Under the pieces are notes generated by a model. The model was not told the origin of the DNA. It saw only the letters and a list, made by a program, of their open reading frames with translations, and ran no database searches. The position numbers were made by a program, and so were the translations under genes. Of a DNA stretch of 64,000 nt, positions 5,222-59,382 are shown one piece after another. The first letter of the stretch is position 1. Each line of letters starts with the position of its first letter. The stretch is from Allofranklinella schreckenbergeri (GTDB lineage Bacteria > Pseudomonadota > Gammaproteobacteria > Burkholderiales > Burkholderiaceae_C): NCBI RefSeq assembly GCF_003703475.1, contig NZ_RDQM01000003.1, positions 1 through 64,000 on the forward strand, written 5' to 3'.

Positions 5222-5296
5222 ATTCCAATCAAAGAAAAAGTGGCTTATTGACCATCATGCCGAAACATATGGATTTTTTATTCTTTGAATTGGAAT
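5222..5296 (-). repeat. Family 1 intergenic inverted repeat, copy 1
   Basis: 75 bp between smc and the next gene. Arms ATTCCAATCAAAG and CTTTGAATTGGAAT flank the core, which on the minus strand reads TGTTTCGGCATGATGG. AT-rich against a GC-rich background. See the finding on family 1. Confidence 0.85.
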
Positions 5297-5375
5297 TTTG
5301 CATAATCGCCACGCGCCCGAGCGGTTGGGCATGCTACCCTGCACGCCCCGTCCAAGCCCCCGCCCTTGTCGCACC

Positions 5376-6548
5376 ATGAGCGCCACCCTCCTTCTCACCC
5401 TCTGCACCGCGCCGCTGATCCTGCTGACCGCGCTGCCCTTTTTCAAGGCGCGGGCCTGGTGGGTGCGCATCTGGGATTTCCCGCGCCTGCAACTGGCCAT
5501 CCTGTTGGCGCTGGCCGCGCTGGCGCAAGTGTGGTGGCTGGATGTGGCCCGCCCAGCCCCCGCCGCGCTGCTGGCCGCCACCCTCGCCAGCCTGGGCTAC
5601 CAGCTCTGGTGGATCCTGCCCTACACCCGCCTGTGGCGGCGCGAAGTGCGCTGGGCCGATGCGCACGAAAGCGGCCCACGCCTGCGCATGCTCTCGGCCA
5701 ACGTGCTCACCCCCAACCGCAACGCGCCCGCGCTGCTGGCGCTCATCGCGCAGCACCGCCCCGACATCGTCGTCACGCTGGAGAGCGACGAGTGGTGGCA
5801 GGCGCAACTTGCCCCCCTGCACGCGCAATACCCCCATCGCCTGGCCTGCCCGCTGGACAACCTCTACGGCATGCACTTGTATTCGCGCCTGCCGCTGGAT
5901 CAGGCCAGCATCGAGTTTCTGGTCGAGGCCGATGTGCCTTCCATGCACGCCAGCGTGCTGCTGCACCCGGCCGGCAACGGCCGCGAAGCCGTGCGCGCGC
6001 GCCTGCACGTGTTGCACCCCGCACCGCCCAGCCCCAACGAGGCCGACAGCTCCACCGAGCGCGATGTGGAGCTGGTGATGGTGGCCAAAAGCCTGGAGCG
6101 AGAAGACGGCCCCATCATCGTTGCGGGCGACTTGAACGACGTGGGCTGGTCGCCCACCACGCGGCTGTTTCGCAAAATCAGCGGCCTGCTCGATCCGCGC
6201 GTGGGGCGCGGCATGCTCAACAGCTTTCACGCCCATTACTGGTTTGCGCGCTGGCCGCTGGACCACTTCTTCCACAGCGACCACTTCGAGCTGGTAGGCA
6301 TTCACCGCCTGCCCACCATCGGCTCCGATCACTTCCCCGTCATGATCGAGCTGCAATACCACCCGGCCAACAAGCACCAGCAAGAAGGCCTGCAAGCCAG
6401 CGGCCAAGACCGCCAGGAGGCCCGCGCCTTCCTGCGCGAGCAAGAGGCCAGCGCAGCCGACGTGCCCGAGCCAGCCGCGCAGGAGGGGCGGCGACTGGAC
6501 GGGCAGGGCAGGGGCCAACGCGCGAGAAATGAAAAGGCCGGTTGGTAA
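5376..6548 (+). CDS. Membrane-anchored endonuclease/exonuclease/phosphatase-family protein
   Basis: 390 residues from the ATG at 5376; the frame opens earlier but the upstream stretch lies partly in a repeat. The N-terminus has about three hydrophobic helices (TLLLTLCTAPLILLTALPFF, LAILLALAALAQVWW, ALLAATLASLGYQLWW). The EEP catalytic fold follows, with SANVLTPNRN, a metal-ligand Glu in VTLESDEWW, GDLNDVGWSP, and the terminal GSDHFP with the catalytic Asp-His. The family contains phosphodiesterases, DNases and lipases, and the substrate here cannot be read from sequence. The last 45 or so residues are a polar low-complexity tail ending inside a hairpin shared with the opposite strand. No obvious functional partner is adjacent. 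Confidence 0.8.
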   Translation: MSATLLLTLCTAPLILLTALPFFKARAWWVRIWDFPRLQLAILLALAALAQVWWLDVARPAPAALLAATLASLGYQLWWILPYTRLWRREVRWADAHESGPRLRMLSANVLTPNRNAPALLALIAQHRPDIVVTLESDEWWQAQLAPLHAQYPHRLACPLDNLYGMHLYSRLPLDQASIEFLVEADVPSMHASVLLHPAGNGREAVRARLHVLHPAPPSPNEADSSTERDVELVMVAKSLEREDGPIIVAGDLNDVGWSPTTRLFRKISGLLDPRVGRGMLNSFHAHYWFARWPLDHFFHSDHFELVGIHRLPTIGSDHFPVMIELQYHPANKHQQEGLQASGQDRQEARAFLREQEASAADVPEPAAQEGRRLDGQGRGQRARNEKAGW

Positions 6549-6556
6549 CCGGCCTT
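6534..6556 (-). terminator. Hairpin terminator for the minus-strand toxin-antitoxin unit
   Basis: A perfect 10-bp stem AAGGCCGGTT/AACCGGCCTT with a 3-base loop. On the minus strand it is followed by TTTTC, so it suits the minus-strand unit. It overlaps the stop of the plus-strand gene. Confidence 0.6.
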
Positions 6557-6576
6557 GAAAACTGCCCAGCCTCCTT

Positions 6577-6769
6577 TTAAAACCCCGCTTCTTTTTGATG
6601 GCGCACCGCCAAGATGGTGATCGCATCCCCATCCACACGGTACAAGGCCACAGCCAGCGCGGATCGCCTTGACGGCGCGCTGGGCCGCATCGGGGTTTTT
6701 GGGGAGAAGAAAGCGGTAAAGGCGTTGAAGATCGACCGCAGCGCGCGGCGACCAAATCAGCGATGGCAT
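6577..6769 (-). pseudogene. RelE/ParE-type toxin remnant with internal deletion and frameshift
   Basis: The frame opens with MPSLIWSPRAAVDLQRLYRF and continues to AIRAG, a normal ParE/RelE start. At about 6650 it then joins directly, in a different frame, to AVALYRVDGDAITILAVRHQ followed by KEAGF and a stop at 6577, a normal family C-terminus. Only about 64 codons remain of the usual 95-100, so roughly the middle third is lost and the two halves are out of frame. The start overlaps the antitoxin stop by 13 nt, the usual arrangement for these operons. The toxin should be inactive. Confidence 0.8.
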
Positions 6770-7038
6770 GGGGGCAGCGGCGCGTCTTCACCCGCTTGCA
6801 GCCTGGCTAGCCAGGCATCGACTTCTTCGCCTGTCAGGTGTAGCCCTGTGCGCTGGTATTCCTCCCAGGCCTCAAGGACATCTTGCTGGAAGGCCTGGCG
6901 CTTTTCTTCCCGCTCCAAATAGTTTTCTATGGCGGTGTGCAGCATGGCATGCGCCGTGCGGTTTTGGGTTTGCGCCAAATGCTGGATGCGCTGGTGCAGC
7001 GCTTCGTCCAGGTTGAGGGATAGGGCGATCGTTGGCAT
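6757..7038 (-). CDS. Ribbon-helix-helix (CopG/ParD-like) antitoxin
   Basis: 93 residues. The N-terminal MPTIALSLNLDEALHQRIQH matches a beta-strand plus helix DNA-binding domain, and the C-terminal acidic part (ENYLEREEKRQAF, EEYQRTGLHLTGEEVDAWL) is the likely toxin-wrapping tail. A strong Shine-Dalgarno AGGAGA lies just upstream (7046-7051 on the complement). It is the first gene of a two-gene unit with the broken toxin. It appears intact, so the cell may keep it as a solitary regulator or as an antidote against a related toxin elsewhere (inference). Confidence 0.75.
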   Translation of the reverse strand: MPTIALSLNLDEALHQRIQHLAQTQNRTAHAMLHTAIENYLEREEKRQAFQQDVLEAWEEYQRTGLHLTGEEVDAWLARLQAGEDAPLPPCHR

Positions 7039-7051
7039 GAGGCGTTCTCCT

Positions 7052-7071
7052 GAATATCGGCGAATATCGGC
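7052..7071. promoter_or_regulatory. Direct repeat, possible autoregulatory operator of the antitoxin
   Basis: GAATATCGGC occurs twice in tandem directly upstream of the antitoxin ribosome-binding site. Ribbon-helix-helix antitoxins usually bind short repeats in their own promoter, so this is a reasonable operator candidate. There is no direct proof. Confidence 0.35.
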
Positions 7072-7080
7072 GCCCGCACC

Positions 7081-8067
7081 TTAGCACAGCCAATCCACCG
7101 GCCAATCCCCTCCCGGCGGGCACTCCAGCGCCACGGTTTCACCGCTGCGCGGGTGGCTAAAGCGCAGCCGCCAGGCGTGCAAGAACATGCGGTTCAGGCC
7201 CTGCTTGGCCAGGCGTTTGTTCCAGTCGAAATCGCCGTATTTCTCATCGCCCGCGATAGGGTGGCCGCTGCTGGCGGTGTGTACGCGGATTTGGTGCGTG
7301 CGGCCGGTTTTGATCGTCACCTCGATCAGGCTGGTGGCGGGCATGCCCCGCTCGGGCTGGGCGGGCCAGGTGTGGCGCACGACGAACAGCGAGAGCGCGT
7401 GCATGCCCTCGGCGTCGCTTTTCTCCGTCGGGCGCACGCGGCGTTCGCCATCGGGCAGCAGGTATTTGCGCAGGGGCGTGTCCACCACCTTGCGGCGCTG
7501 GGGCCAGGCGCCTTTGACCACGGCCAGATAGGTTTTGCCCGTGCTGCGGGCGCGAAATTGGTCTTGCACGTGGGTCAAGGCGCTGCGGCGCTTGGCAATG
7601 AGCAAGATGCCCGAAGTCTCTTTATCCAGCCGGTGCACCAGCTCCAGAAAACGCGCCTCGGGGCGGGCGGCGCGCAACTGTTCGATGACGCCAAAGCTCA
7701 CGCCGCTGCCGCCGTGCACGGCCACGCCAGCGGGTTTGTGGATGGCCAGCAGCAGCTCGTCCTCGAACAGCACGGCAAATTCCCGCGCGGGCGCAGGTGT
7801 GCCGGGGGCGGCGTTTGCGCCCGCGTCACCCACGGCGCTGGCGCGCACGGGCGGCACGCGCACGATGTCGCCTGCGGCCAAGCGGCTGTCGGCCTGGGCG
7901 CGGCCTTTGTTCACGCGCACCTGGCCGCTGCGGATGAGGCGGTACACATGGCTTTTGGGCACGCCTTTGACGGTGCGAAACAGGAAGTTATCCAGCCGTT
8001 GGCCAGCCCATTCTTCCTGCACGGTCAAAAACTGGGCGGTGGGCGAGGGCGATGCGGGGGCGGACAT
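7081..8067 (-). CDS. rluC: 23S rRNA pseudouridine synthase RluC
   Basis: 328 residues from the ATG at 8067. A longer frame to 8112 adds a poor extension, so the MSAPASPSP start is preferred. An N-terminal S4 RNA-binding domain (GQRLDNFLF...RLIRSGQVRVN) precedes the RluA-family catalytic domain. That domain has HRLDKETSG with the nucleophilic Asp148, and KTGRTHQIRVH. The enzyme isomerises uridines 955, 2504 and 2580 (E. coli numbering) of 23S rRNA. In many proteobacteria rluC sits by rne; here it lies between the decayed toxin module and a family 1 repeat. Confidence 0.93.
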   Translation of the reverse strand: MSAPASPSPTAQFLTVQEEWAGQRLDNFLFRTVKGVPKSHVYRLIRSGQVRVNKGRAQADSRLAAGDIVRVPPVRASAVGDAGANAAPGTPAPAREFAVLFEDELLLAIHKPAGVAVHGGSGVSFGVIEQLRAARPEARFLELVHRLDKETSGILLIAKRRSALTHVQDQFRARSTGKTYLAVVKGAWPQRRKVVDTPLRKYLLPDGERRVRPTEKSDAEGMHALSLFVVRHTWPAQPERGMPATSLIEVTIKTGRTHQIRVHTASSGHPIAGDEKYGDFDWNKRLAKQGLNRMFLHAWRLRFSHPRSGETVALECPPGGDWPVDWLC

Positions 8068-8166
8068 GGCGGCAGGGCAGGGCAGAGAGCAAAAGCCGCG
8101 CACTGTAGCCAAGTTTGCGGCCGGTGAGGGGGTGGTGTGGCAGGGAGGCGGCTTTCCAAGTGTTTT

Positions 8167-8246
8167 ATTTCTATTTCAAGAGAAATAAAATATCCTTGTT
8201 TTGGCAACATTGATATAAAAGTAATTTTATATTGATATGTAATTTG
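8167..8246 (+). repeat. Family 1 intergenic inverted repeat, copy 2 (divergent)
   Basis: Left part TTTCTATTTCAAGAGAAATA is identical to that of the copy at 59305. The core is degenerate (TTGTTTTGGCAACATTGATA). It lies between the divergent rluC and xerD starts, one of only two copies in a divergent gap. Confidence 0.7.
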
Positions 8247-8364
8247 AAAATTCTGCAAAGCCCGCCTGGCAGGTAGGCGGAGCGCCCTAAGATGGCAGCT
8301 TTGCTGGATTTCCCGCTTGCTTTGCGCCTCCTTTTTGCCTTCTTTCCCGCCGCCCTGTATCCCG

Positions 8365-9306
8365 ATGAACGCGCCTGCCCTTGCCGCCGATCCCGCTGCG
8401 CCCGCCTTGCCCCGGCCTGACGATCAGGCGCTGATCGATCGTTTTATCGACAGCCTCTGGCTGCACGAAGGCCTGGCGCGCAACACCTTGTACGCCTACC
8501 GCAAGGATTTGGAGCTGCTGGCCGCCTGGCTGGCGCAACAGCAAGGGCCTGCGCTGCTGGCCGTGGGCGAGGGCGATGTGCACCAGTATTTCGCCGCCCG
8601 CCACAGCCAGACCAAGGCCAGCACGGCCAACCGCCGCCTGACGGTGCTCAAGCGCTTTTACCGCTGGGCGCACCGCGAGGGCCTATGCGCCAGCGACCCC
8701 ACCGCCCGCACGGATGCCGCCCGGCAAGCCCTGCGCGTGCCCAAGACGATGAGCGAGGCCCAGGTCGAGGCGCTGCTGGCCGCGCCCGACACCAGCACCG
8801 CGCTGGGCCTGCGCGACCGCGCCATGCTGGAGCTGCTCTACGCCAGCGGCCTGCGCGTGAGCGAGCTGGTGGCGCTGAAAACCTGGCAAATCCGCACCAA
8901 CGAAGGTGTGCTGCAAGTCACCGGCAAGGGCAGCAAGGAGCGCCTGGTGCCCTTTGGCGCCGTGGCTCAGCAATGGCTGGAGCGCTACGCGCAAGAGGGC
9001 CGGGCGCTCATCCTGGCCGGGCAGATGACGGACGATTTTTTCGTCACCGCGCGCGGCCAGGCCATGGGGCGCGCCATGTTCTGGGTGCTGATCAAGAAAT
9101 ACGCCGTGCAGGCGGGCATCACGCAATCGCTCTCGCCGCATACCTTGCGCCATGCCTTTGCCACGCATTTGCTCAACCACGGCGCGGATTTGCGCGCGGT
9201 GCAAATGCTGCTGGGGCATTCGGATATTTCCACCACCACCATTTACACCCACGTGGCGCGCGAGCGGCTGAAAAACCTGCACGCCGAGCACCACCCGCGC
9301 GGGTGA
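8365..9306 (+). CDS. xerD: Site-specific tyrosine recombinase XerD
   Basis: 313 residues from ATG 8365. An N-terminal SAM-like core-binding domain (residues about 20-110) precedes the catalytic domain. All six catalytic residues are visible: R164 (SGLRVSE), K188 (GKGSKER), H259 and R262 (HTLRHAF), H285 (LLGHSDIST) and the nucleophile Y294 (IYTHV). With XerC it resolves chromosome dimers at dif during FtsK-driven segregation. The length and [17 protein letters not shown] motif fit XerD rather than a phage integrase. No dif-like site was recognised nearby. Confidence 0.93.
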
Positions 9307-10814: not shown

Positions 10815-10840
10815 GCTGCCACGCTGCGCTTGGCACGCAA

Positions 10841-12751: not shown

Positions 12752-12755
12752 TTAT

Positions 12756-12830
12756 TTACAAATCAATAGGAAATAAAACCGCCTTGTTTTGGCTTGATGG
12801 GTGTCAAGCAGATTTTCTAATGATTTGTAA
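12756..12830 (+). repeat. Family 1 intergenic inverted repeat, copy 3
   Basis: 75 bp with perfect 10-bp ends TTACAAATCA/TGATTTGTAA. Core CTTGTTTTGGCTTGATGGG. It lies between convergent genes, and its right part codes, on the minus strand, for the last residues of the methyltransferase. Confidence 0.9.
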
Positions 12831-13655: not shown

Positions 13656-13675
13656 GGCTGGGTCTTGTCTCCTGT

Positions 13676-13750
13676 TTTTCTATCAAAGGAAAATGTGCTT
13701 TTTGTCTGTTTTGCCGTAATGGGTTTGTTTTATTTCCTTTGATTGGTTAT
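13676..13750 (+). repeat. Family 1 intergenic inverted repeat, copy 4
   Basis: Ends CTATCAAAGGAAAA and ATTTCCTTTGATTGGTTA, core TGTTTTGCCGTAATGGGT. Lies between the methyltransferase start and the 3' end of the peptide-binding protein gene. Confidence 0.85.
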
Positions 13751-13780
13751 TTTTGCGGCTAAGCGTCGTTGACAGGCTGG

Positions 13781-20780: not shown

Positions 20781-20783
20781 TTT

Positions 20784-20862
20784 TTTATCAATCAATAGGA
20801 TAAAAAATAACCTTGTTTCGGCTTGTTGGGTATAAATTTGTATTTCTTATGAAGTGCAATTA
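20784..20862 (+). repeat. Family 1 intergenic inverted repeat, copy 5
   Basis: Left ATCAATCAATAGGATAAAAA, core CCTTGTTTCGGCTTGTTGGG, right arm degenerate (TTTCTTATGAAGTGCAATT). Between fabI and the multicopper oxidase gene. Confidence 0.8.
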
Positions 20863-22536: not shown

Positions 22537-22611
22537 TTTTTCGATCAAAGGAAATTTCGATCAACGCATATCATGCCGAAATAGGGTGATTTTATTTCCT
22601 TTGATTTAGAA
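22537..22611 (-). repeat. Family 1 intergenic inverted repeat, copy 6
   Basis: Arms GATCAAAGGAAAT and ATTTCCTTTGATT. On the minus strand the core is CTATTTCGGCATGATATG. It lies between the convergent oxidase and DUF192 genes. Confidence 0.85.
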
Positions 22612-22662
22612 TTTTCAGGTATTTTCAGCATGCGCCAAGGCTTGAACGCTAACGCTTGATGG

Positions 22663-24660: not shown

Positions 24661-24712
24661 GCAAATCCGCTTCTAGCCCACTCGTGCAGAGATCGTGAAC
24701 AGGCGCTTATAG
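24661..24712 (-). repeat. Right-end fragment of the family 2 repeat
   Basis: AAATCCGCTTCTAGCCCACT followed by CGTGCAGAGATCGTGAACAGGCGCT matches the right end of the complete element at 38022-38190. It abuts the 3' end of rimI. Confidence 0.6.
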
Positions 24713-26411: not shown

Positions 26412-27221
26412 ATGGCCTCCACCTCTGACGACCACGACGAACTGGCTGGCACCGAGCAGCCTTTTGTGCAGCACCTTGTGGAGCTGCGCAACCGCATCCT
26501 GTATGCGTTTTTGGGTTTTTTGGCGGCGGTCATCGGCCTGATGATCTGGCCCGGCCCGGCCGCGCTGATCGACTTCATCGCCTTGCCCATCCGCGCGCAC
26601 ATGCCGCCCGATGCCAAGCTGATTGCCGTGGGCGTGCTCTCGCCGTTTCTGGTGCCGCTCAAGGTGGTGCTGATGACGGCGCTGCTGGTGGCGCTGCCCT
26701 GGTTGATCTACCAGATCTGGGCCTTTGTGGCGCCGGGGCTTTACAGCCACGAAAAGCGCTTTGCGCTGCCGCTGATTCTGATTGGCAGCTTGCTGGCCTA
26801 TGTGGGCATTGGGTTTGTGCAGTTTGTGGTGCTGGATAACCTGTTCGAGTTCATCCAGAAAGTCTCGCCCGAAAGCGTGGCGGCCACGCCGGACGTGGCC
26901 TCGTATGTGAGCGTGATCCTCTCGCTCTACATCGGTTTTGCGCTGGCCTTTCAGGTGCCGGTGGTGGTGATGCTGCTGGTGCAGGCCAAGCTGGTGCCGG
27001 TGGAGAAGCTGCGCGCCTTCCGGCCTTACTTCATCATCGTGGCCTTTGTGTTCTGCGCCATCGTCACGCCGCCAGACCCCATCTCCATGCTGGCGCTGGC
27101 CATTCCCATGTGCTTGCTCTACGAAGTGGGGCTGTGGGCGGCGCGCTGGTTCCAATCCAAGGAAACCGCCGTGGCAGAAACGTCTGCGTCCTCGAATTCT
27201 TCCGAAAATACAAATCAATAA
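26412..27221 (+). CDS. tatC: Sec-independent protein translocase subunit TatC
   Basis: 269 residues from ATG 26412. The conserved cytoplasmic start FVQHLVELRNRILYA and six membrane spans are visible, with FVAPGLYSHEKR and the PPDPISMLALAIPM loop. TatC binds the twin-arginine motif. The final codons (Thr-Asn-Gln-stop) lie inside a family 1 repeat that supplies the stop codon. The usual upstream his genes of betaproteobacterial tat operons are absent. Confidence 0.96.
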   Translation: MASTSDDHDELAGTEQPFVQHLVELRNRILYAFLGFLAAVIGLMIWPGPAALIDFIALPIRAHMPPDAKLIAVGVLSPFLVPLKVVLMTALLVALPWLIYQIWAFVAPGLYSHEKRFALPLILIGSLLAYVGIGFVQFVVLDNLFEFIQKVSPESVAATPDVASYVSVILSLYIGFALAFQVPVVVMLLVQAKLVPVEKLRAFRPYFIIVAFVFCAIVTPPDPISMLALAIPMCLLYEVGLWAARWFQSKETAVAETSASSNSSENTNQ

Positions 27222-27282
27222 GAAAAATTATGCGCATTTTTCGGCATGATGGTATTGAAGTGTTTTTTATTATTGATTTGAA
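27209..27282 (+). repeat. Family 1 intergenic inverted repeat, copy 7
   Basis: Perfect ends CAAATCAATA/TATTGATTTG, core ATTTTTCGGCATGATGGTAT. Overlaps the 3' end of tatC and gives its TAA. Confidence 0.9.
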
Positions 27283-27315
27283 ATATTCATTGTTGGCCTG
27301 AGAGGGATAGCACCG

Positions 27316-31154: not shown

Positions 31155-31697
31155 ATGCAACGCCGCCAATTCCTGACCCGCAGCGCAACCGCCACAGCCG
31201 CTGCCGTTGTGACCGTGACAGCCGCCGCCAGCCTGAGCGCCTGCGGCTTTGCGCTGCGCGGCTCGGCCAATTACCCCTTCAAATCCGTCTTTATCCAGGC
31301 GGCGGACGCCTCGCCGCTGGCGCGCCAATTGCAGCGCACGCTGGAGGCCGCGGGCATCACCGTGCTGCGCGCCCCCAGCAGCCCGCAGATGGCCGAGAAA
31401 GTCTTTGAATTGCTGCAAGAGCAGCATGAGAGGGTGGTGGTGAGCCAATCGGCCGCTGGCAACGTGCGCGAGCTGCAATTGCGCTTGCGTGTGCGCTACC
31501 GCCTCACATCCGCCCATGCGCCAACCAGCAGCCAGGCCAGCGGGCAGACCGCCGCGCAGACGACGGAGCTGCTGCAAACGCGCGATCTCAATTACGACGA
31601 AACCTACGCCCTGGCCAAGGAGGAAGAAGCGCAAATGCTGTTTCGCGATATGCAGGCGGATTTGGTCGGGCAGATTGTGCGGCGTTTGGCAAGCTGA
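31155..31697 (+). CDS. lptE: LPS-assembly lipoprotein LptE
   Basis: 180 residues from ATG 31155. A lipoprotein signal with lipobox LSAC (C30) is followed directly by GFALRGS, the LptE/RlpB signature, and a C-terminal YALAKEEEAQMLFRDMQADL segment. It plugs the LptD barrel that places lipopolysaccharide in the outer leaflet. It follows leuS as in most betaproteobacteria, but holA, the usual third gene, is replaced by a family 1 repeat and rluD. Confidence 0.93.
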   Translation: MQRRQFLTRSATATAAAVVTVTAAASLSACGFALRGSANYPFKSVFIQAADASPLARQLQRTLEAAGITVLRAPSSPQMAEKVFELLQEQHERVVVSQSAAGNVRELQLRLRVRYRLTSAHAPTSSQASGQTAAQTTELLQTRDLNYDETYALAKEEEAQMLFRDMQADLVGQIVRRLAS

Positions 31698-31700
31698 TTT

Positions 31701-31774
31701 TTCAAATCAAAAAGAAACAAAATCGCCTTGTTTTGGCATGATGGGTATATAATCAATTTTACTTTGATTGGATG
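31701..31774 (+). repeat. Family 1 intergenic inverted repeat, copy 8
   Basis: Ends CAAATCAAAAAG and ACTTTGATTGGAT, core CCTTGTTTTGGCATGATGGG. Starts within a few bases of the lptE stop. Confidence 0.9.
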
Positions 31775-31849
31775 TATTGCCGTGATGCCGGAGCGGCTTT
31801 GATTTCTTGCAGGCCGCTGTCCCCTTCAATCCCCCTTTCCTTGCTTGCC

Positions 31850-32962
31850 ATGAGCTGCCACCGCACCGAATGCCCGGATGGGCCTGCATCGCGTCTGGAC
31901 GCGGCGGCCCAGGCCAGCGATGCTGCCGAGTTGGAACTGGCCGCCGAGCAGCGCTGCGGCCAGATCGTCGCAGCCTGGCACGGGCAGCGGCTGGACAAGG
32001 TGGTGCTGGAGCTGGCGGGCGAGTTCTCGCGCAGCCACTTGCAGCAGCTCATCAAAAGCGGCCAAGTGCTGCTCGATGGCCAATGCATCACCAAGCCCGC
32101 GCACAAGGTGCAAGTGGGCCAGCGCATCGCCATCACCTTGCAGGCCACGGCGCAAAGCCAGGCTTTTGTGCCCCAGGCCATGCCTTTGCCCATCGTGTAT
32201 GAGGACGAGGCCATATTGGTCATCGACAAGCCCGCGGGCCTGGTCGTGCACCCGGCGGCGGGCAACTGGAGCGGCACCTTGCTCAACGGCTTGCTGGCCT
32301 ACGACAGCGCCCTGGCCCGCTTGCCGCGCGCGGGCATCGTGCACCGGCTGGACAAAGACACCAGCGGGCTGATGGTGGTGGCCAAAACCCTGCCCGCGCA
32401 AACCGCGCTGGTCGAGCGCATTGCCGCGCGGCAAGTCTCGCGGCAGTACCTGGCCGTGGCCAGCCGCAGCGCGCAGGCGCGCAGCCCCTGGCAGGCGGTG
32501 GGCGAGAGCGTGCGGGTGGATGCGCCCATTGGCCGCGATCCGCGCAACCGCTTGCGCATGGCGGTGCTGGAGAGCTGCCCGCCGGGCAAGCCCGCGCAAA
32601 CCGATATGCGCCTGCTGGCGGGTGCGCCAGCCGATAACGATGTTGATGCCGCTGCGCTGCAAGCTGCACAACCCGCACAGCTCGTGCAACCCGCGCAGGC
32701 CCGTTTTGCCTTGCTGCACTGCAGCTTGCACACGGGCCGCACACACCAGATTCGCGTCCACGCCCGCCATCTGGGCTGGCCTTTGGTGGGCGATGCCACT
32801 TATGGCGGCCCGCCCCATGCGGCCATCGCCCGCCAGGCTTTGCATGCCTGGCGCCTGGGGCTGGAGCACCCGCTCACCGGCCAGGCCTTGCAGTGGCACA
32901 GCCCTTTGCCTGCCGATATGCAGGCGTTGCTGGCGGCGCTGGGTCTGCCGCTGCCTGAATAG
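31850..32962 (+). CDS. rluD: 23S rRNA pseudouridine synthase RluD
   Basis: 370 residues from ATG 31850. S4 domain (GQRLDKVVLELAGEFSRSHL, then LIKSGQVLLDG) and the RluA catalytic domain with HRLDKDTSGLMVVAK (nucleophile D168) and LHTGRTHQIRVHARHLGWP. It makes pseudouridines 1911, 1915 and 1917 in helix 69 of 23S rRNA (family knowledge). An Ala/Gln/Pro-rich insertion (residues about 255-280) precedes the TGRTHQIR motif. bamD and yfiH, common neighbours, are not adjacent. Confidence 0.92.
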   Translation: MSCHRTECPDGPASRLDAAAQASDAAELELAAEQRCGQIVAAWHGQRLDKVVLELAGEFSRSHLQQLIKSGQVLLDGQCITKPAHKVQVGQRIAITLQATAQSQAFVPQAMPLPIVYEDEAILVIDKPAGLVVHPAAGNWSGTLLNGLLAYDSALARLPRAGIVHRLDKDTSGLMVVAKTLPAQTALVERIAARQVSRQYLAVASRSAQARSPWQAVGESVRVDAPIGRDPRNRLRMAVLESCPPGKPAQTDMRLLAGAPADNDVDAAALQAAQPAQLVQPAQARFALLHCSLHTGRTHQIRVHARHLGWPLVGDATYGGPPHAAIARQALHAWRLGLEHPLTGQALQWHSPLPADMQALLAALGLPLPE

Positions 32963-33008
32963 AGGTGAGGGGAGGGCGCTCCGGGATGCCTCGGGGTGCA
33001 AAAAAATC

Positions 33009-33082
33009 CATTTCAAAAAAAATAAAACCACCATGTTTCGGCATGGTGGTTTTTAAATGGTTTTTACTTTGATTTGCAATTT
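33009..33082 (+). repeat. Family 1 intergenic inverted repeat, copy 9
   Basis: Contains the best inner hairpin of the family: CCACCATG, loop TTTCGG, CATGGTGG. Right arm TTTTTACTTTGATTTGCAA. Between the convergent rluD and PhoH genes. Confidence 0.9.
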
Positions 33083-33102
33083 ATGGGTTGGGCCAAGCCT
33101 TC

Positions 33103-34842
33103 CTACAGCACTTCGCTGGCGTAGTCCGCCAGGCGTGAGCGCTCGCCGCGCGCGAGGGTGACGTGGCCGCAATAGGCCCAACCTTTGAAGCGATCGACGG
33201 CGTAGGTCAGGCCGCTGGAGCCTTCGGTCAGGTAGGGCGTGTCGATCTGCGCCAGGTTGCCCATGCAGACGATTTTGGTGCCGGGGCCGGCGCGCGTGAC
33301 CAGCGTCTTGATTTGCTTGGGTGTGAGGTTTTGCGCCTCATCGATGATGAGGTATTTGTTCAGAAAAGTGCGCCCGCGCATGAAGTTCATGCTCTTGATC
33401 TTGATGCGGTTGCGGATGAGGTCGTTGCCCACGTTGTGCGTCCAGTTGGGGCCGCTGGGGCTGGCGCTGCCTTTGGTGAGAAACTCCAGGTTGTCGTCCA
33501 GCGCGCCCATCCACGGGCCCATTTTTTCTTCTTCCGTGCCGGGCAGAAAGCCGATGTCCTCGCCCACGTTGACGGTGGCGCGCGTCATGATGATTTCGCT
33601 GTAGCGGCGCTCGTCGAGCACCTGGCGCAAACCGGCGGCCAGGGCCATGAGGGTTTTGCCCGTGCCTGCGGTGCCGGCGAGGGTGACGAAGTCGATCTCC
33701 GGGTCCATCAGCAGGTTCAGGGCGAAGTTTTGCTCGCGGTTGCGCGCCGTCACGCCCCAGACGTTGTTCTTGGCGCTGGTGTAGTCGCGCAGGGTGCGCA
33801 GCACGGCGCTGTTGCCCTGCACCTCCTGCACGATGGTGTAAATGCCCGCCTCGCCCGGTGCTTCGTAATAGACGAATTGGTTGACCAGCAGCTCGGCCGC
33901 AATGGGGCCGTGGATGCGGTAATAGGTGTGGCCCTGCGCTTGCCAGCTCTCGAGCTTTTTGCCCTGCTTGGTCCAGAAGTCCGCGGGCAGGGCGAGGGTG
34001 CCGCTGTAGAGCAGCTCGTCGTCATCCAGAACTTTGTCGTTTTGGTAATCCTCGGCCAGCATGCCCAGCGCGCGGGCTTTGACGCGCATGTTGATGTCTT
34101 TGGAAACGAGGATGACTTCGCGCCCCGGGTGCTGTTTTTGCAGGGCATGGACGACGCCCAGAATCTGGTTGTCGGCCTTGCTCTTGGGCAGGCTGGCGGG
34201 CAGCTCGGTATCGAGCAGGCTGGTCTGGAAAATCAGGCGGCCCGTGGCCTGTTTTTGCCCCGTGGCATTGAGGGGCAGGCCAGCGCTGAGGTCGCCGTCG
34301 CTGAGCGATACCAGCGCATCCAGGTTGCGGCTGACCTGGCGGCCATTGCGGGCCACTTCGGTGGCGCCGCGCTTGTGCGAATCGAGCTCTTCGAGCACCA
34401 CCAGAGAGAGATAAATATCGTGCTCCTCAAAGCGGAACAGGGAAGTGGGGTCGTGCAGCAAAACGTTGGTGTCCAGCACGAACAGCCGCGTGGCCTGCTC
34501 GTGCTCGGGGCTGCTGACGCGTGTGCGTGTGCGCCGCACCTTGCTGGCGCGTGCGGGCGCAGGCGTGGCCTGGGGCGCAGGCGCGGTCGCTGGCGCGCTG
34601 GCGGCTGTGTGCTGAACCGCTTGTGACGCTTGGGGGGTCTTGGCCCGGCTGCGTGCAGCCGCAGGCTTGGCCGTGGTTGCTGGGGGGATTGCCGCTTGGG
34701 GCAATTCAACCGCATCGGCCGTATCAGGCGCACCAGCGTTGGCTGCAACCACCAGCTTGGCGCGATTGGGGCGCGCGGCAGCAGCGCTGGCGCTGGGCTG
34801 AACCTTGGTTCCACGACGTTTGGGAGCAGGAGGCAATGGCAT
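33103..34842 (-). CDS. PIN domain-PhoH ATPase fusion protein
   Basis: 579 residues. An Ala/Pro-rich, basic leader (1-110) is followed by a PIN nuclease-like domain ([37 protein letters not shown]). The C-terminal PhoH helicase/ATPase domain (about 350-579) has Walker A GTAGTGKT and Walker [10 protein letters not shown]. This PIN-PhoH arrangement is known for PhoH2/YlaK proteins, which act as RNA unwinding and cleaving enzymes; no small antitoxin gene (phoAT type) was seen upstream. It is monocistronic. Confidence 0.88.
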
Positions 34843-34868: not shown

Positions 34869-34910
34869 AGAAATGCGCTCGCGCAGAGATTTTGAACAGG
34901 CTCTGACAGG
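34869..34910 (-). repeat. Right-end fragment of the family 2 repeat
   Basis: CGCTCGCGCAGAGATTTTGA followed by ACAGGCTCTGA matches the right terminus of the element at 38022-38190. It lies just 5' of the PhoH gene. Confidence 0.65.
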
Positions 34911-38025: not shown

Positions 38026-38190
38026 GAGCCTGTTCAAAATCTTTGCACGGCGGTCAAGAGAGCGGATTTGGGCGGTCTGCGGCGTTGCAAAGCCTCGCCA
38101 TAGCCCGAGCTATGGCTACGTTTTGCGCCTTGCAGCCCATCCCAAACCGCTTCTTGCCCACTCGCGCCGAGATTTTGCACAGGCTCTGAG
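38022..38190. mobile_element. Complete family 2 repeat, MITE-like element
   Basis: 169 bp. Terminal inverted repeats CTGAGAGCCTGTTCAAAATC (left) and CTCAGAGCCTGTGCAAAATC (right, complement). An internal perfect palindrome GCCATAGC-CCGA-GCTATGGC lies near the middle. It has no coding capacity. Other fragments in the window: 735-865, 24661-24712, 34869-34910, 42735-42768 and 43449-43484. Confidence 0.75.
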
Positions 38191-40718: not shown

Positions 40719-40798
40719 TTTTACAATTCAATGTAAATTTGATTTGATGCCTAAATTGCCGAAATAGGCGGATATTTTTTCTTATTGATGTGTAAAAA
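40719..40798 (-). repeat. Family 1 intergenic inverted repeat, copy 10
   Basis: Ends GATTTTACAATTCAAT and TATTGATGTGTAAAA; on the minus strand the core is CTATTTCGGCAATTTAGG. Its right end merges with the terminator of the minus-strand gene. Confidence 0.8.
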
Positions 40799-44888: not shown

Positions 44889-44899
44889 TGAAAAGCCTT

Positions 44900-44979
44900 A
44901 ATAACCAATCAAAAGGATAAAAAATATGGCTGTTTCGGCAAGCTGGAAGGTGCTTGTGTTTTCCTTTTGATTGGTTATT
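44900..44979 (+). repeat. Family 1 intergenic inverted repeat, copy 11 (most symmetric)
   Basis: 80 bp with 18-bp perfect inverted ends AATAACCAATCAAAAGGA / TCCTTTTGATTGGTTATT. Core CTGTTTCGGCAAGCTGGAAG. Best reference copy of the ends. Confidence 0.95.
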
Positions 44980-45000: not shown

Positions 45001-45080
45001 TTTTATCGATCAATAGGAAACAAAATTGCCATTTTTCGGCTTGATGGGTAGATGCCCTGTTTTCCTTTGAATGAAGTATT
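45001..45080 (+). repeat. Family 1 intergenic inverted repeat, copy 12 (tandem neighbour)
   Basis: Left ATCGATCAATAGGAAACAAA, core CATTTTTCGGCTTGATGGGT, right TTTTCCTTTGAATGAAGTA. Only 21 bp after copy 11, in the same orientation, at the 3' end of dprA. Confidence 0.85.
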
Positions 45081-49479: not shown

Positions 49480-49537
49480 AATTTGGAAACATTTTGGTGT
49501 TTTTTACTGCCCTTGGTAGCGCTGATGCATGATTTTT

Positions 49538-49612
49538 TTGCAATCAATAGGAATAAAAATTTGGCTATTTTGGCTTGATGGTAATCAAATTAATTTTATT
49601 TTGATTTGTAAA
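49538..49612 (+). repeat. Family 1 intergenic inverted repeat, copy 13 (divergent)
   Basis: Left GCAATCAATAGGAATAAAAA, core GGCTATTTTGGCTTGATGGT, right TTTTATTTTGATTTGTAA. Lies between the divergent EAL and PTS IIC genes. Confidence 0.85.
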
Positions 49613-53161: not shown

Positions 53162-53178
53162 GGCTTTTGGAAATACCT

Positions 53179-53620: not shown

Positions 53621-55600
53621 TCAGGCGCTGTCTGCCTGCTGCATGAGGTTTTGCAACTCTTCCGAAAGCGTCAGCCATTCTTCCTCCGCAGCTTCAATGC
53701 TGGTTTGCAAGGCTTTGATTTTTTTGCCGCTTTCGGCCCATTGGGCGGGCGTGGCGTCGCTGCCCAGTGCGGCTTCCAGGGCGTCTTTTTCGCCTTGCCA
53801 CTGGGCCATGTTTTTTTCCAGGGCCTGGATTTTTTTCTTCAAGGGCTGGGTTTTTTCCGCCAGTTTTTGCCGTGTCTGGGCTTGCTGGCGGCGCAGCTCG
53901 CGCTGGTTGACGGGGGGCGGGGCGGCTGCATCAGGGGCGGCGGCGCTGGCCTGGGCTTTGCGTTCTTCAAAGCGGGCGCGGATTTCGCGTTGTTGCTCCA
54001 GCACGTGACGTTGGTAGTCCTCCAGATCGCCGTCGAATTCTTGCACTTGTGCGTTGCTGACCAGCCAGAACTGATCGCTGACGGCGCGCAGCAGGGCGCG
54101 GTCGTGGCTGACGAGCATCAGCGCGCCTTCAAAGCTGTTGAGGGCCATGCCCAGGGCTTCTCGGGTGGCCAGGTCGAGGTGGTTGGTTGGCTCGTCCAGC
54201 AGCAGCAGGCCGGGGCGCTGCCACACCAGCGAGGCCAGCACCAGGCGCGCCTTTTCTCCGCCGCTCATGGTGCCGATGGGTTGGGTCACCATGTCGCCGC
54301 TGAAGTTGAAGCTGCCCAGGAAGTTGCGCAAATCCTGCTCGCGCGCCGGGTTGGGCGGGGTGGCGCCAAAGCTGCGGGCCAGGCGGGTGAAGTGTTCCAG
54401 CGGGGTGTCGGCCGCGCTGAGCACATCCAGCTCTTGCTGGGCGAAGTAGCCGATGCTCAGGCCCTTGCCTTGGATGATTTCGCCCGAGAGCAGCGGCACG
54501 TCGCCGACGATGGATTTGATGAGTGTGGATTTGCCCTGGCCGTTGGCGCCGAGGATGCCGATGCGCTGGCCGGCCTGCACGGACAGTTGCACCTGCCGCA
54601 AGATGGTTTTGCGCTCGCTGCCGTCTTTGGTCTGGTAGCCCATGTCGGCGCGGCGGATGGTCAGCATGGGGTTGGGCAGCGCCAGCGGCTGGCCGAAGGT
54701 GAATTGGAATTCGGCCTCGGCCAGCACGGGGGCGACGCGCTCCATGCGCTCGAGCGCCTTGATGCGGCTTTGCGCCTGGCGGGCTTTGGTGGCTTTGGCT
54801 TTGAAGCGGTCGATGAATTTTTGCAGGTGGGCGATTTTTTCCTGCTGGCGGGCAAAGGCAGCCTGCTGCTGCTGCATCGCCAGGGCACGCTGCTGTTCGA
54901 AAAAGCTGTAGTTGCCGCCGTAGCGGGTGAGGGTTTGCTGCTCCAGGTGCAGGGTGACGCCGGTGGTGGCGTCGAGAAATTCGCGGTCGTGGCTGATGAC
55001 GAGCAGCGTGCCGCTGTAGCGGGCCAGCCAGCCTTCCAGCCAGATCAGCGCGTCCAGGTCCAGGTGGTTGGTGGGTTCGTCCAGCAGCAGCACGTCGCTG
55101 GGGCACATGAGGGCGCGGGCCAGTTGCAGGCGCATGCGCCAGCCGCCGGAGAAGCTGTTGACGGGCCGCTCCAGCTCATCGGGCTGAAAGCCCAGCCCCA
55201 GGATCAGGGTTTGCGCGCGGGCGCGGGCATCGTAGGCGCCGGCATCGGCCAGTTCGGCATGGGCCTGGGCGATGGCCATGCCGTCTGCGGCGGCTTCGGC
55301 GTCGGCCAGGCGGCGTTGGGCTTGCAATAAGCGGTCGTCGCCTTGCAGCACGAAGTCGGTGGCGGCTTGATCCGTCTCGGGCATGTTTTGCGCCACCTGG
55401 GCCAGCCGCCAGCCTGCGGGCATGGAGAAGCTGCCGCCTTCCTCATGCAGGCTGCCGTTGAACAGGGCGAACAGGGTGGATTTGCCCGCGCCGTTGCGGC
55501 CGACCAGGGCGACTTTTTCGCCCGGTTGCAAGGTGGCGCTGGCGCCGTCGAGCAGGACTTTGGCGCCACGGCGCAGCACGATATTTTTCAGAACAATCAT
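53621..55600 (-). CDS. ABC-F family ATPase (YheS-like)
   Basis: 659 residues. Two ABC domains without membrane spans: Walker A GRNGAGKS (34-41) and GANGQGKS; signatures FSGGWRMRLQLARAL and MSGGEKARLVLASL; Walker B LLLDEPTNHLDL in both. A linker rich in Gln, Arg and Lys (QQQQAAFARQQEKIAHLQKF) joins them, and a basic coiled-coil C-terminal domain follows. ABC-F proteins act on the ribosome (translation factor role); the subgroup resembles YheS. Confidence 0.92.
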   Translation of the reverse strand: MIVLKNIVLRRGAKVLLDGASATLQPGEKVALVGRNGAGKSTLFALFNGSLHEEGGSFSMPAGWRLAQVAQNMPETDQAATDFVLQGDDRLLQAQRRLADAEAAADGMAIAQAHAELADAGAYDARARAQTLILGLGFQPDELERPVNSFSGGWRMRLQLARALMCPSDVLLLDEPTNHLDLDALIWLEGWLARYSGTLLVISHDREFLDATTGVTLHLEQQTLTRYGGNYSFFEQQRALAMQQQQAAFARQQEKIAHLQKFIDRFKAKATKARQAQSRIKALERMERVAPVLAEAEFQFTFGQPLALPNPMLTIRRADMGYQTKDGSERKTILRQVQLSVQAGQRIGILGANGQGKSTLIKSIVGDVPLLSGEIIQGKGLSIGYFAQQELDVLSAADTPLEHFTRLARSFGATPPNPAREQDLRNFLGSFNFSGDMVTQPIGTMSGGEKARLVLASLVWQRPGLLLLDEPTNHLDLATREALGMALNSFEGALMLVSHDRALLRAVSDQFWLVSNAQVQEFDGDLEDYQRHVLEQQREIRARFEERKAQASAAAPDAAAPPPVNQRELRRQQAQTRQKLAEKTQPLKKKIQALEKNMAQWQGEKDALEAALGSDATPAQWAESGKKIKALQTSIEAAEEEWLTLSEELQNLMQQADSA

Positions 55601-55700
55601 GGCGCGCGATTATCGGGGTGATGGGCGGGTGGGCGGCTTGAGGCGCGGGCGGTGGTTGGGGTCTTCTGGGGTGTTTTTTGCGCCTTTTGCTTGTTTGTTT

Positions 55701-55772
55701 TATAAATCAAAGGATAAAAAATTGCCTTGTTCCGGCATGATGGTATTAAAGACGTTTTTACTTTGATTGGTT
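55701..55772 (+). repeat. Family 1 intergenic inverted repeat, copy 14
   Basis: Left AAATCAAAGGATAAAAAATT, core GCCTTGTTCCGGCATGATGG, right TTTTTACTTTGATTGGTTA. At the 3' end of mfd. Confidence 0.9.
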
Positions 55773-55777
55773 AATAC

Positions 55778-58700
55778 TTATTGGGAGGGTTTGGCGGCTG
55801 CCGCCGCACCCTCATCGGGCGGTAGCGGCTCGCCCAGGTGGCGCAGCAGATCGCGGATGGTTTGCACGCGCTCGTGCAGGTGGGGCAGTTCGCGTTCGAT
55901 GCGCAGCTTGTCGTTGCCGGCGAGTTTGATGTGCTTGTTTTTCTGGATCAGCTCGATGATGCGCATGGGCTGCACGGGCGGGTTGGGGCGGAAGGCGATG
56001 GTGATGGCTGCGGGCGTGGCGTCGATGCGCTGTACGCCGTAAGGCTCGGTGAGGATGCGCAGGCGGTGCGTGTCGATGAGCGCTTGCACGGGCGCGGGGG
56101 GCTTGCCGAAGCGGTCAACGATTTCCTCCAGCAGATTGTCCACGGCGTCGGTGGTCTGGGCGGTGGCCAGGCGTTTGTAGAAGGACAGGCGCAGGTGCAC
56201 GTCGCCGCAATAGTCGTCGGGCAGCAGGGCGGGGCTGTGCAGGTTGATTTCGGCCACGGCTTGCATGGGCGCGAGCAGGTCGGGCTCTTTGCCCGCTTTG
56301 AGGGCTTTGACGGCGTCGGCCAGCATCTCGTTGTAGAGGGTGAAGCCAATTTCCAGCATGTTGCCGCTTTGGCTTTCGCCCAGCAGTTCGCCCGCGCCGC
56401 GGATTTCCAGATCGTGCATGGCCAGGTAAAAGCCGCTGCCCAGCTCCTCCATTTGCTGGATGGCTTGCAGGCGCTGCTCGGCCTGGCGGGTGAGGCTTTG
56501 CACATCGGGCACCATCAGATAAGCGTAGGCTTGGTGGTGGCTGCGGCCCACGCGCCCGCGCAACTGGTGCAATTGCGCCAGGCCGAATTTGTCGGCGCGG
56601 CTGATGACGATGGTGTTGGCCGAGGGCACGTCGATGCCGGTTTCGATGATGGTGGAGCACAACAGCAGGTTGTAGCGCTGGGCGACGAAGTCGCGCATGA
56701 CGCGCTCGAGCTCGCGCTCGGGCATTTGGCCGTGGGCGATGGCGATGCGCGCTTCGGGTAGGATTTCTTGCAGCTTGTCGCGGCGCAGCTCGATGGTGTC
56801 CACCTCGTTGTGCAGGAAGTAGGCCTGGCCGCCGCGCTTGAGTTCGCGCAGCACGGCTTCGCGAATCACGCTTTGGTTTTCGCTGCGCACAAAGGTTTTG
56901 ATGGCCAGGCGCTTTTGCGGCGCGGTGGCGATGACGGAGAGATCGCGCAGCCCTTCCAGCGCCATGCCCAGGGTGCGGGGGATGGGTGTGGCGGTGAGCG
57001 TGAGCACGTCCACTTCGGCGCGCAGTTGCTTCATGGCCTCTTTGTGGCGCACGCCGAAGCGGTGCTCCTCGTCGATGATGAGCAGGCCCAGGTTTTTGAA
57101 GTCGATGGAGGAGGACAGCAGCTTGTGCGTGCCCACGACGATATCGACCGAGCCATCGGCCAGCCCCTTGGCGGCGGCGTTGATTTCGCGCGTGGTGCGA
57201 AAGCGGCTCATCTCGGCGATCTTGACGGGCCATTTGGCAAAGCGGTCCACCAGGGTTTGGTAGTGCTGCTCGGCCAGCAGCGTGGTGGGGGCGAGAAAGG
57301 CCACTTGCTTGCCGCCGAGCACGGCCACGAAGGCGGCGCGCAGGGCGACTTCGGTCTTGCCAAAGCCCACATCGCCGCAGACGAGGCGATCCATGGGCTG
57401 GGGGCTGAGCATGTCGGCAATGACGGCCTGGATGGCGGCGCTTTGGTCGGGCGTTTCCTCGAAGCCGAAATCGTTGGCGAAGGTTTCGTACTCGCTGGCA
57501 TCAAGGCGGAAGGCATGGCCTTGGCGCGCAGCGCGGCGGGCGTAGATGTTGAGCAGCTCGGCGGCCACGTCGCGCACTTGCTCGGCGGCCTTGCGTTTGG
57601 CTTTTTCCCACTGGCCCGATCCCAGGCGGTGCAGCGGCGCTTCGTCGGCGGCCACGCCGCTGTAGCGGCTGATTTGCTGCAATTGGCTCACGGGCACGTA
57701 GAGCACGGCTTCGCCCGCGTATTCCAGATGCAGGAATTCTTGCAAGGCGGCGCTGCCGTCGGGGTTTTTCTGGCCCATGTCCATGTGCAGCAGGCCGCGG
57801 TAGCGGCCGATGCCGTGCTGGGCGTGCACGACGGGATCGCCGATTTTCAGCTCGGCCAGGTCTTTGACCATGCCTTCGACGCTGCTGGCCTGCTCGTAGC
57901 GGCGGCGGCGGCGCGTGGAGGGCGCGGCGTTGAACAGCTCCGTTTCGGTGACGAAATCGATGCCCGCCTCGCTCCAGCCGAAGCCGCGTTGCAGGACGCT
58001 GGTGGCGATGCCGATTTTTTCGTCGCTGGCGATGAATTCGGCCAGGCTGTCAAAGCCGGGCGTGCTCAGGCCGCTGGCGCGGAAAAAATCCGCCAGGCTC
58101 TCGCGCCGTCCGGCGCTTTCGGCCAGCACCAGCACGCGCTGGGCGCTGCTGCGCAGGTGCGCTTGCAGGCGCGAGAGCGGGTCTGGCGCGCCGCGCACGG
58201 CGGCGATGTCGGGCAGGGCGGTGAAGTCGGCGCGGTGGGCGGCGTCGCTATCGGCCTGGGCATCGCTGGCGGGCGGGCGCAGCGACAGTTGCGCCAGCGG
58301 CTTGCAGAGGCGGAAAAACTGCTCGGCGCTGAGAAACAGCGCCTCGGGCGGCAGGGCGGGGCGCTCCTGGTCGTGCCGGGCGATGCGCCAGCGCTCTTGC
58401 GTGTCCTGCGCGAAGCGCTCCAGCGCCACATCCAGCGGGCCGTGCAGGGCCAGCGTGGCGGCCTGGCCCAGGTAGTCGAAGACGGTGGCGGTTTCTTCAA
58501 AGAACAGCGGCAGGTAGTACTCGATGCCTGCGGTGGCAACGCCGTTGCCCATGTCCTTGTAGATGCGGCTTTTGGTCGGGTCGCCCTCCATCAGCTCGCG
58601 CCAGCGGGTGCGAAAGCGTGTGCGCGCGTCTTCATCCATGGGGAATTCGCGCCCGGGCAGCAGGCGGATTTCCTGCACCAGCGCCTGGCTGCGCTGGGTG

Positions 58701-59290
58701 TCGGGGTCGAAGGTGCGGATGGAGTCGATCTCGTCGTCGAACAAATCGATGCGGTAGGGGTGGGCCGCGCCGTTGGGGAATAAATCGATCAGGCTGCCGC
58801 GCACGGCGTATTCGCCCGGGCCGACGACTTGGCCTACGTGCTGGTAGCCCGCCATGGTGAGCTGGGCCTTGAGCTGGGCTTCATCCAGTTGCTGGCCAGT
58901 CTGGAACTGGAAGGTGTAGGCGGCCAGAAAGGCGGGCGGGGCCAGGCGGTACAGCGCGGTGGTGGCGGGGATGAGCAGCACATCGGCCTGGCCCTGGACG
59001 ATGCTCCATAGCGTGGCCAGGCGCTCGCTGATGAGGTCTTGGTGGGGGGAGAAGTTGTCGTAGGGCAGCGTCTCCCAGTCGGGGAACAGGCACAGGCGCA
59101 GCGCGGGATCGAAAAACGCCATTTCGCGCAGCAGGCGCAAGGCATCGCGCGCATCGGCGGTGACGACGGCCAGGCGGCGACCGGCGGCTTTCTCCCGCAC
59201 GGCCAGTTGCGTCAGCAACAGGGCGTCGGCAGAGCCAACGGGCATGGGCAAGGTGTAGCGCTGGCCGGGGGTGAGCTTGGGCAGTTGCAT
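55778..59290 (-). CDS. mfd: Transcription-repair coupling factor Mfd
   Basis: 1170 residues. N-terminal UvrB-homology module (LFPDWETLPYDNFSPHQDLI, PGEYAVRGSLIDLFP), RNA-polymerase interaction domain (DPVVHAQHGIGRYRGL), then an RecG-like translocase: Walker A GDVGFGKT at 639-646, DEEH in LIIDEEHRFGV, TATPIPRTL and QLRGRVGRS. The C-terminal TRCF domain follows. It removes stalled RNA polymerase at lesions and recruits UvrA. ispD-ispF, commonly downstream, are not present. Confidence 0.97.
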   Translation of the reverse strand: MQLPKLTPGQRYTLPMPVGSADALLLTQLAVREKAAGRRLAVVTADARDALRLLREMAFFDPALRLCLFPDWETLPYDNFSPHQDLISERLATLWSIVQGQADVLLIPATTALYRLAPPAFLAAYTFQFQTGQQLDEAQLKAQLTMAGYQHVGQVVGPGEYAVRGSLIDLFPNGAAHPYRIDLFDDEIDSIRTFDPDTQRSQALVQEIRLLPGREFPMDEDARTRFRTRWRELMEGDPTKSRIYKDMGNGVATAGIEYYLPLFFEETATVFDYLGQAATLALHGPLDVALERFAQDTQERWRIARHDQERPALPPEALFLSAEQFFRLCKPLAQLSLRPPASDAQADSDAAHRADFTALPDIAAVRGAPDPLSRLQAHLRSSAQRVLVLAESAGRRESLADFFRASGLSTPGFDSLAEFIASDEKIGIATSVLQRGFGWSEAGIDFVTETELFNAAPSTRRRRRYEQASSVEGMVKDLAELKIGDPVVHAQHGIGRYRGLLHMDMGQKNPDGSAALQEFLHLEYAGEAVLYVPVSQLQQISRYSGVAADEAPLHRLGSGQWEKAKRKAAEQVRDVAAELLNIYARRAARQGHAFRLDASEYETFANDFGFEETPDQSAAIQAVIADMLSPQPMDRLVCGDVGFGKTEVALRAAFVAVLGGKQVAFLAPTTLLAEQHYQTLVDRFAKWPVKIAEMSRFRTTREINAAAKGLADGSVDIVVGTHKLLSSSIDFKNLGLLIIDEEHRFGVRHKEAMKQLRAEVDVLTLTATPIPRTLGMALEGLRDLSVIATAPQKRLAIKTFVRSENQSVIREAVLRELKRGGQAYFLHNEVDTIELRRDKLQEILPEARIAIAHGQMPERELERVMRDFVAQRYNLLLCSTIIETGIDVPSANTIVISRADKFGLAQLHQLRGRVGRSHHQAYAYLMVPDVQSLTRQAEQRLQAIQQMEELGSGFYLAMHDLEIRGAGELLGESQSGNMLEIGFTLYNEMLADAVKALKAGKEPDLLAPMQAVAEINLHSPALLPDDYCGDVHLRLSFYKRLATAQTTDAVDNLLEEIVDRFGKPPAPVQALIDTHRLRILTEPYGVQRIDATPAAITIAFRPNPPVQPMRIIELIQKNKHIKLAGNDKLRIERELPHLHERVQTIRDLLRHLGEPLPPDEGAAAAAKPSQ

Positions 59291-59304
59291 GGCGGAGGCT
59301 TGTT

Positions 59305-59382
59305 GATTTCTATTTCAAGAGAAATAAAAATGCCTTATTTCGGCATACTGGGTATTGTTTTGATTTTTCTTTGATTAGTATA
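59305..59382 (+). repeat. Family 1 intergenic inverted repeat, copy 15
   Basis: Left TTTCTATTTCAAGAGAAATA identical to copy 2; core GCCTTATTTCGGCATACTGG; right TTTTTCTTTGATTAGTA. Immediately upstream of the mfd start. Confidence 0.85.

Follow-up and report, generated by a model that had tools for sequence, protein, structure and literature searches.

Element copies in the window

The window, that is the whole 64-kb stretch analysed, contains 15 copies of a short AT-rich inverted-repeat element, most of which are found close to a stop codon. All 15 had been listed in an initial annotation, and all were found in place, in a gap-free alignment of 84 columns. When a sequence-only model (R1) was built from these copies, each scored 51-72 bits, and the next-best match in the window (17.8 bits) was one copy read backwards.

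Convergent gaps hold the copies at 12752..12830 (+ strand, 69 bits with R1) and 40719..40798 (-, 60.5 bits), both of which abut a stop codon, and the copy at 33002..33081 (+, 64 bits), whose core lies inside a strong predicted hairpin. Divergent gaps hold the copies at 8163..8244 (+, 51.2 bits) and 49533..49612 (+, 59.3 bits). The copy at 5221..5299 (-, 66.1 bits) is located 8 nt past the stop of an SMC gene (1679-5212), that at 22537..22616 (-, 64 bits) 3 nt past the stop of a multicopper oxidase gene, and that at 55695..55775 (+, 65.8 bits) 2 nt from the stop of the minus-strand gene at 55778-59290. At 20781..20861 (+, 61.5 bits) the element abuts a stop codon, at 27204..27284 (+, 52.9 bits) it overlaps the end of the upstream ORF, and at 31696..31773 (+, 71.7 bits) it is found at the end of the gene following LeuRS. 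An adjacent pair is formed by a copy with long, near-perfect arms and a compensated arm change in the close relative G008 (44898..44977; +, 57.6 bits) and a copy separated by 4 nt from the facing gene's stop (45001..45078; +, 60.8 bits). Distances of 27 nt to a stop and 19 nt to a start codon were observed for the copy at 13675..13753 (-, 51.4 bits); for the copy at 59303..59382 (+, 57.8 bits), they are 165 nt and 12 nt, respectively. The copies beginning at 12752, 13675, 20781, 22537, 31696, 33002, 40719, 45001, 49533 and 55695 are kept in G008.

According to the initial annotation, 13 of the 15 copies touch a gene's 3' end. Indeed, 13 are in convergent or tandem gaps and two in divergent gaps, but 12 are within 40 nt of a stop codon, and one of the 13, the copy at 59303, is near a start codon.

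Copy number and structure of the element

The core as first described occurs six times in the 64-kb window when up to three mismatches are allowed, compared with a mean of 0 in 100 shuffles. The 14-base core TTTCGGCATGATGG, with at most one mismatch, was found 150 times in the 2.82-Mb genome and its reversed control once. A whole-genome model search gave at least 150 copies (150 of 1577 candidates were scored and all of these were significant), and 117 model matches, of which 106 were kept, were obtained in the window and 20 further stretches (459 kb of the genome). Using a profile made from 95 copies, 198 copies of at least 20 bits were observed in 859 kb of the window's genome (G000), or approximately one copy per 4.3 kb, and 126 in 510 kb of G008. 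The same profile gave no match in 455 kb of G002 and none in sequence with 100-bp blocks shuffled. The total for G000 is estimated at approximately 650 copies when scaled by length, or 520 when scaled by the genome-wide count of the exact 14-mer, and the lower figure is the safer one because element positions partly guided the choice of stretches. The profile scan suggested in the initial annotation thus yielded many further copies in G000 and G008, and the expectation of hundreds per chromosome was borne out.

The unit is about 80 bp long. Its arms, TTTTTACnAATCAAAAGGAAAtAAAAT and ATTTTCCTTTGATTtGnAAA, are inverted and flank a linear core, TTTnGGCA, which is located close to the centre. The consensus of the 95 copies is TTTTTACaAATCAAAAGGAAAtAAAATaaCCtTGTTTCGGCATGATGGtaATaAAgTtgATTTTCCTTTGATTTGaAAA, and the columns conserved in at least 94 % of them are A14, G18-A21, T35-T37, G39-C41, T62-T64 and T69-G70. 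The outermost bases are poorly conserved in this alignment although inverted arms are present. The spacing between the left arm and the core is 13 nt in 111 of the 124 copies (of 188) in which both marks were found. The right arm mark is at 32 nt in 61 of 118 copies; a second group of 25 copies, at 37 nt, may stem from a loose search pattern. In agreement with the AT-richness noted at the outset, the element forms an AT island whose right edge is softer and whose left edge is sharp, the GC content dropping there from about 0.54 to 0.13.

The closest pair among the 95 sampled G000 copies is 86 % identical, so there is no sign of recent copying. Identity to the nearest copy is 0.762 and exceeds the 0.732 of column-shuffled copies slightly, which indicates that some shared ancestry remains. 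Gene conversion among copies was considered and not adopted, as no near-identical pair was seen among the 95; short converted tracts may nevertheless exist.

Position relative to genes

Genes were called by our own codon-usage script, in which single calls may be wrong. On this basis, the 198 G000 copies are distributed over tandem (124), convergent (51) and divergent (17) gaps and stretch ends (6), and three are inside a called gene. When gaps of at least 60 bp in G000 were considered, an element was present in 45 of 83 gaps between convergent genes, in 121 of 305 tandem gaps and in 16 of 90 divergent ones; in G008, the occupied gaps were 37 of 54, 69 of 177 and 11 of 56, respectively. Occupancy is higher in convergent than in divergent gaps in both genomes (p = 6 × 10−7 in G000 and 3 × 10−7 in G008), and about half of the sampled convergent gaps hold an element.

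The 124 tandem copies in G000 lie at a median of 14.5 nt past the upstream stop. For 117 of them, the distance to the stop was 15 nt versus 52 nt under uniform placement, and 100 of the 175 copies with a neighbouring stop are 0-20 nt from it. A preference for 3' ends was therefore found when copies were counted against gene ends, as had been proposed. Divergent gaps are occupied too and their copies score little lower (median 42.7 versus 47.1, p = 0.41), so the role may not be strictly one of 3' ends.

Orientation of the tandem copies to the gene is near random (59 same and 65 opposite in G000, 41 and 30 in G008), which argues against a strand-specific RNA. Scores are slightly higher for anti-oriented copies in each of the two genomes (p = 0.064 and 0.066).

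Distribution among genomes

Two closely related Comamonadaceae, G000 and G008, are the carriers in number among the genomes searched. The exact core is found 55 times in G000 and 44 times in G008, 0 or 1 time in the eight other genus genomes examined, and no more than once in any other genome among 299 sampled from the family. In the sister genomes, the model search detected three copies in G007 and one each in G002 and G009. When 399 family genomes were searched with the model at an E-value of 1e-5, only G000 and G007 matched; G008 is missing from this result, and the search filters lose weak matches.

At least one pair of elements in G007 is located in a prpC-acnD tract (L122:8599-12690; the gene names are a reading of the translations) that is 96 % identical to G000 over about 4 kb. 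Long matches of another region are mostly 70-87 % identical, and because of this difference the tract, with its elements, was probably received by recombination in a recent exchange between species.

A contig binned as Flavobacteriales (L048, JADZGG010000154.1) contains the exact 19-base core and gives no model match at an E-value of 0.1. When one copy was searched for spread by plasmids and phages, no plasmid match and a single 30-base phage match (E-value 0.07) were obtained. The exact 14-mer is present in at least 120 viral-contig stretches, which was judged to be chance from the match list alone.

Probable insertion, retention and divergence of the copies

Seven gene pairs with an element between them are adjacent both in G000 and in a sister genome. 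Their gaps differ from those of the sister by -73, 52, 58, 88, 97, 119 and 187 bp (median +88 bp), compared with a median of 0 for 35 element-free pairs (one-sided p = 0.003). The counterpart gaps in the sisters gave no profile hit; across 1.02 Mb of sister sequence, hits were confined to L122 and L125. These few cases (seven gaps, one of them 73 bp shorter) suggest that the elements probably entered by insertion in the ancestor of both carriers, after which the family stayed in place.

G000 and G008 share 92 % of four-fold sites (33,993 sites; divergence 8.2 %). All 59 G000 sites examined hold a copy of at least 20 bits in G008, and all 65 G008 sites, a set that overlaps the 59, have a profile hit in G000 (64 of at least 20 bits and one of 14.7 bits). 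The MITE/REP-like character proposed in the initial annotation is compatible with the origin of the family, the shared gaps being about one element longer, but no sign of present movement was seen.

Over the 59 ortholog pairs, divergence was 6.3 % in the left arm (48/764; columns 9-21), 7.4 % in the core (35/472) and 7.6 % in the right arm (67/885), whereas the two parts of the inner spacer diverged by 26.6 % (110/413) and 26.0 % (184/708) and the flanks by 13 % (855/6505). Intermediate values were observed for columns 22-27 (10 %), columns 43-48 (16 %) and the outer ends (13.5 % and 17.9 %). AT content alone does not explain this pattern because the same copies are their own control and the A and T of the spacer diverge by 24 % and 22 %. 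The slow divergence is most simply explained by selection acting on the arms and the core at sites that stay fixed. The conserved core of the first description thus stands as a selected one, but the best conserved part is TTTnGGC together with parts of the arms, and not the whole 20-mer.

Selfish or neutral behaviour is what is commonly assumed for small repeats in bacteria. The copies could be dead MITE- or REPIN-like relics without a host function, found past stop codons since insertions elsewhere are harmful. This would agree with copies that are intergenic and randomly oriented, that show no sign of movement and no transposase, and that enlarge their gaps by about one element. Relics of this kind are nevertheless unlikely, given arms and core that diverge by 6-8 % against 26 % in the spacer of the same copies, the retention of every examined site, and the crowding against the stop codon.

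The divergence of the spacer (26 %) also exceeds that of other intergenic sequence (7.1 %), the flanks and four-fold sites. Spacer hypermutation is not claimed, since the spacer may be simply unconstrained: divergence is 40 % at four-fold sites where G000 has A or T and 4-5 % where it has G or C, which points to a strong third-position GC preference, and this preference may slow the rest.

RNA structure and terminator signals

Another possibility is that the element acts as RNA, an AU-rich hairpin at the 3' end of the mRNA that terminates or protects the transcript, the palindrome working from either strand. In favour of it are the placement directly past stop codons and the better pairing of a copy's own arms compared with swapped ones (z = -4). 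One clear compensated arm change is seen between G000 and G008, in the window copy at 44898. When the 46 ortholog pairs with changes in both arms were compared, the native pairing won in 16 cases and the hybrid in 10, with 20 ties. An inner RNA hairpin at the core was rejected, as own halves had no clear advantage over swapped ones (z = -1.5).

The core behaves as a linear sequence: column 34, the would-be partner of C41, is G in only 57 % of copies, and TTTnGGC is near invariant except at n. RNAalifold gave no consensus structure for the 15 window copies. Among the top 30 column pairs by mutual information, one linked the left arm to the right end (columns 9 and 79); it was the last of the 30 and out of pairing register, and the strongest pairs were within the left arm and correspond to its one-base register shift. 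No Rfam 15 family matched the window at the gathering threshold, nor the region 31600-33200, which holds two copies, at an E-value of 1.

Terminator-like hairpins were only mildly rarer beside tandem elements (24/179 versus 77/344, p = 0.014); in convergent gaps with an element, no such reduction was observed (47/157 versus 32/123, p = 0.51). When the element was masked, the terminator-like signal was lost from 4 of the 179 tandem and 24 of the 157 convergent ends that have an element. At convergent ends, some copies hold or complete such a hairpin (whole versus masked, 39/87 versus 22/87 in G000 and 32/70 versus 25/70 in G008), whereas tandem copies add little (16/113 both whole and masked in G000, 12/66 versus 8/66 in G008). 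Most copies lack a GC-rich stem with a U tract, and most elements are not classical intrinsic terminators; few copies agree with the transcription terminator first suggested, if the term is taken classically. Random orientation and a linear core that is indifferent to pairing speak against a strand-specific RNA role, and we regard the RNA explanation as improbable.

Comparison with known repeats and mobile elements

The element is a member of the broad class of small palindromic repeats. MITEs, Correia/NEMIS, ERIC, BOX and RUP are short, non-coding repeats with inverted ends that are present in many intergenic copies. The element is likewise short and non-coding, with inverted arms and many copies inserted intergenically. 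Unlike them, it has poorly defined outer ends, is strongly concentrated near stop codons and is conserved site by site. In the sampled sequence, neither a target duplication nor a parent IS was found: direct repeats in the flanks were not clearly more frequent than with shuffled partners (matching 5- to 6-mers were seen in no more than 2-4 % of copies), and the multi-copy 853-bp DDE_Tnp_1 IS, the sole IS read in the sampled stretches, was rejected as parent because its ends, AGAACCTGTTCAAAATCTTTT, are unlike the arms. DDE_Tnp_1 was matched 12 times in G000 and five times in G008.

As with Rho-independent (bidirectional) terminators, an inverted repeat is found in convergent gaps and after stops, with a hairpin in a minority of convergent copies; the AT-rich stem, the long loop, the general lack of a GC-rich stem with a U tract and the sequence-conserved core differ from them. 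A REPIN consists of two inverted REP units with a diverse spacer between them (PMC8049555). Hundreds of intergenic palindromic elements and long persistence are shared with the present family; inverted arms and a variable spacer are present here too, but with a conserved core within the spacer. In contrast, the present elements are AT-rich, near-rigid 80-bp units, found in one lineage only among the genomes searched, and no RAYT (Y1_Tnp, PF01797) was detected in G000 (99 % complete) or G008 (80 % complete). PF01797 was matched in five of 10 genus genomes. The IS110 transposase (PF01548) gave no match in G000 or G008. The transposase or RAYT search proposed at the outset thus returned no RAYT, and no IS with matching ends, in the sampled carriers. 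Multi-term literature queries, which are weak evidence of absence, returned nothing recognised as this element.

Half-elements away from full copies amounted to two left and five right ends, the best of 8-9 bits, and no credible solo ends were found, in 1.37 Mb from the two carriers, which included about 30 % of G000. Still-active non-autonomous elements, a sequence population kept up by an unrecognised transposase, are very improbable: the copies do look much as if drawn around a master sequence, which would be expected of a REPIN population, but no gain or loss was seen at the 59 and 65 examined sites despite 8 % four-fold divergence, no pair of the 95 copies exceeds 86 % identity, and neither the two transposase families (G008 being 80 % complete) nor credible solo ends (in 1.37 Mb) were detected.

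Proposed origin and role

The explanation that we favour, with confidence and doubt in about equal measure, is an extinct MITE- or REPIN-like burst whose copies were domesticated at gene 3' ends as sites that work in either orientation, the gene-end function being a putative one. The existence of the family, the range of its copy number, its position, its retention and its constraint are established by the data above. A non-autonomous MITE- or REPIN-like element would have spread into intergenic sites in the ancestor of both carriers, movement would then have stopped, and the surviving copies would have been domesticated, with arms and core held by selection at each site. Each copy would most likely be an orientation-independent DNA site at a gene 3' end, bound by a putative protein through core and arms. 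Extrusion of a hairpin or cruciform may assist, because pairing is slightly better between own than between swapped arms. The site would block or insulate transcription running out of the gene. A protein-binding site, which the initial annotation had offered among other roles, fits the linear core, the rigid spacing and the random orientation, but its protein is for now hypothetical.

More tentatively, and with considerable doubt, the family may be a lineage-specific punctuation, in which an inserted burst became several hundred arm-core-arm sites and a dedicated protein reads them in either orientation and ends or insulates transcription. The same copies can be traced site by site between two genomes, and the nearly element-free sisters represent the state before. 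Whether a repeat burst can be converted to a genome-wide gene-end signal thereby becomes testable, and a putative binding protein would be the candidate to seek.

Other repeats

A second repeat, approximately CTCGCGCAGAGATTTTGAACAGGCTCTGA, was observed in the window at 843-871, 24681-24709, 34878-34906 and 38161-38189. It resembles the end AGAACCTGTTCAAAATCT of the 853-bp DDE_Tnp_1 IS (L255:3918-4770), which is present in several copies, and probably represents solo ends or remnants of that IS. Gaps of G002 and G007 also contain similar 10-mers. A tandem 9-bp repeat, approximately CTCCACCGC, is found at the left edge of the window (1-130).
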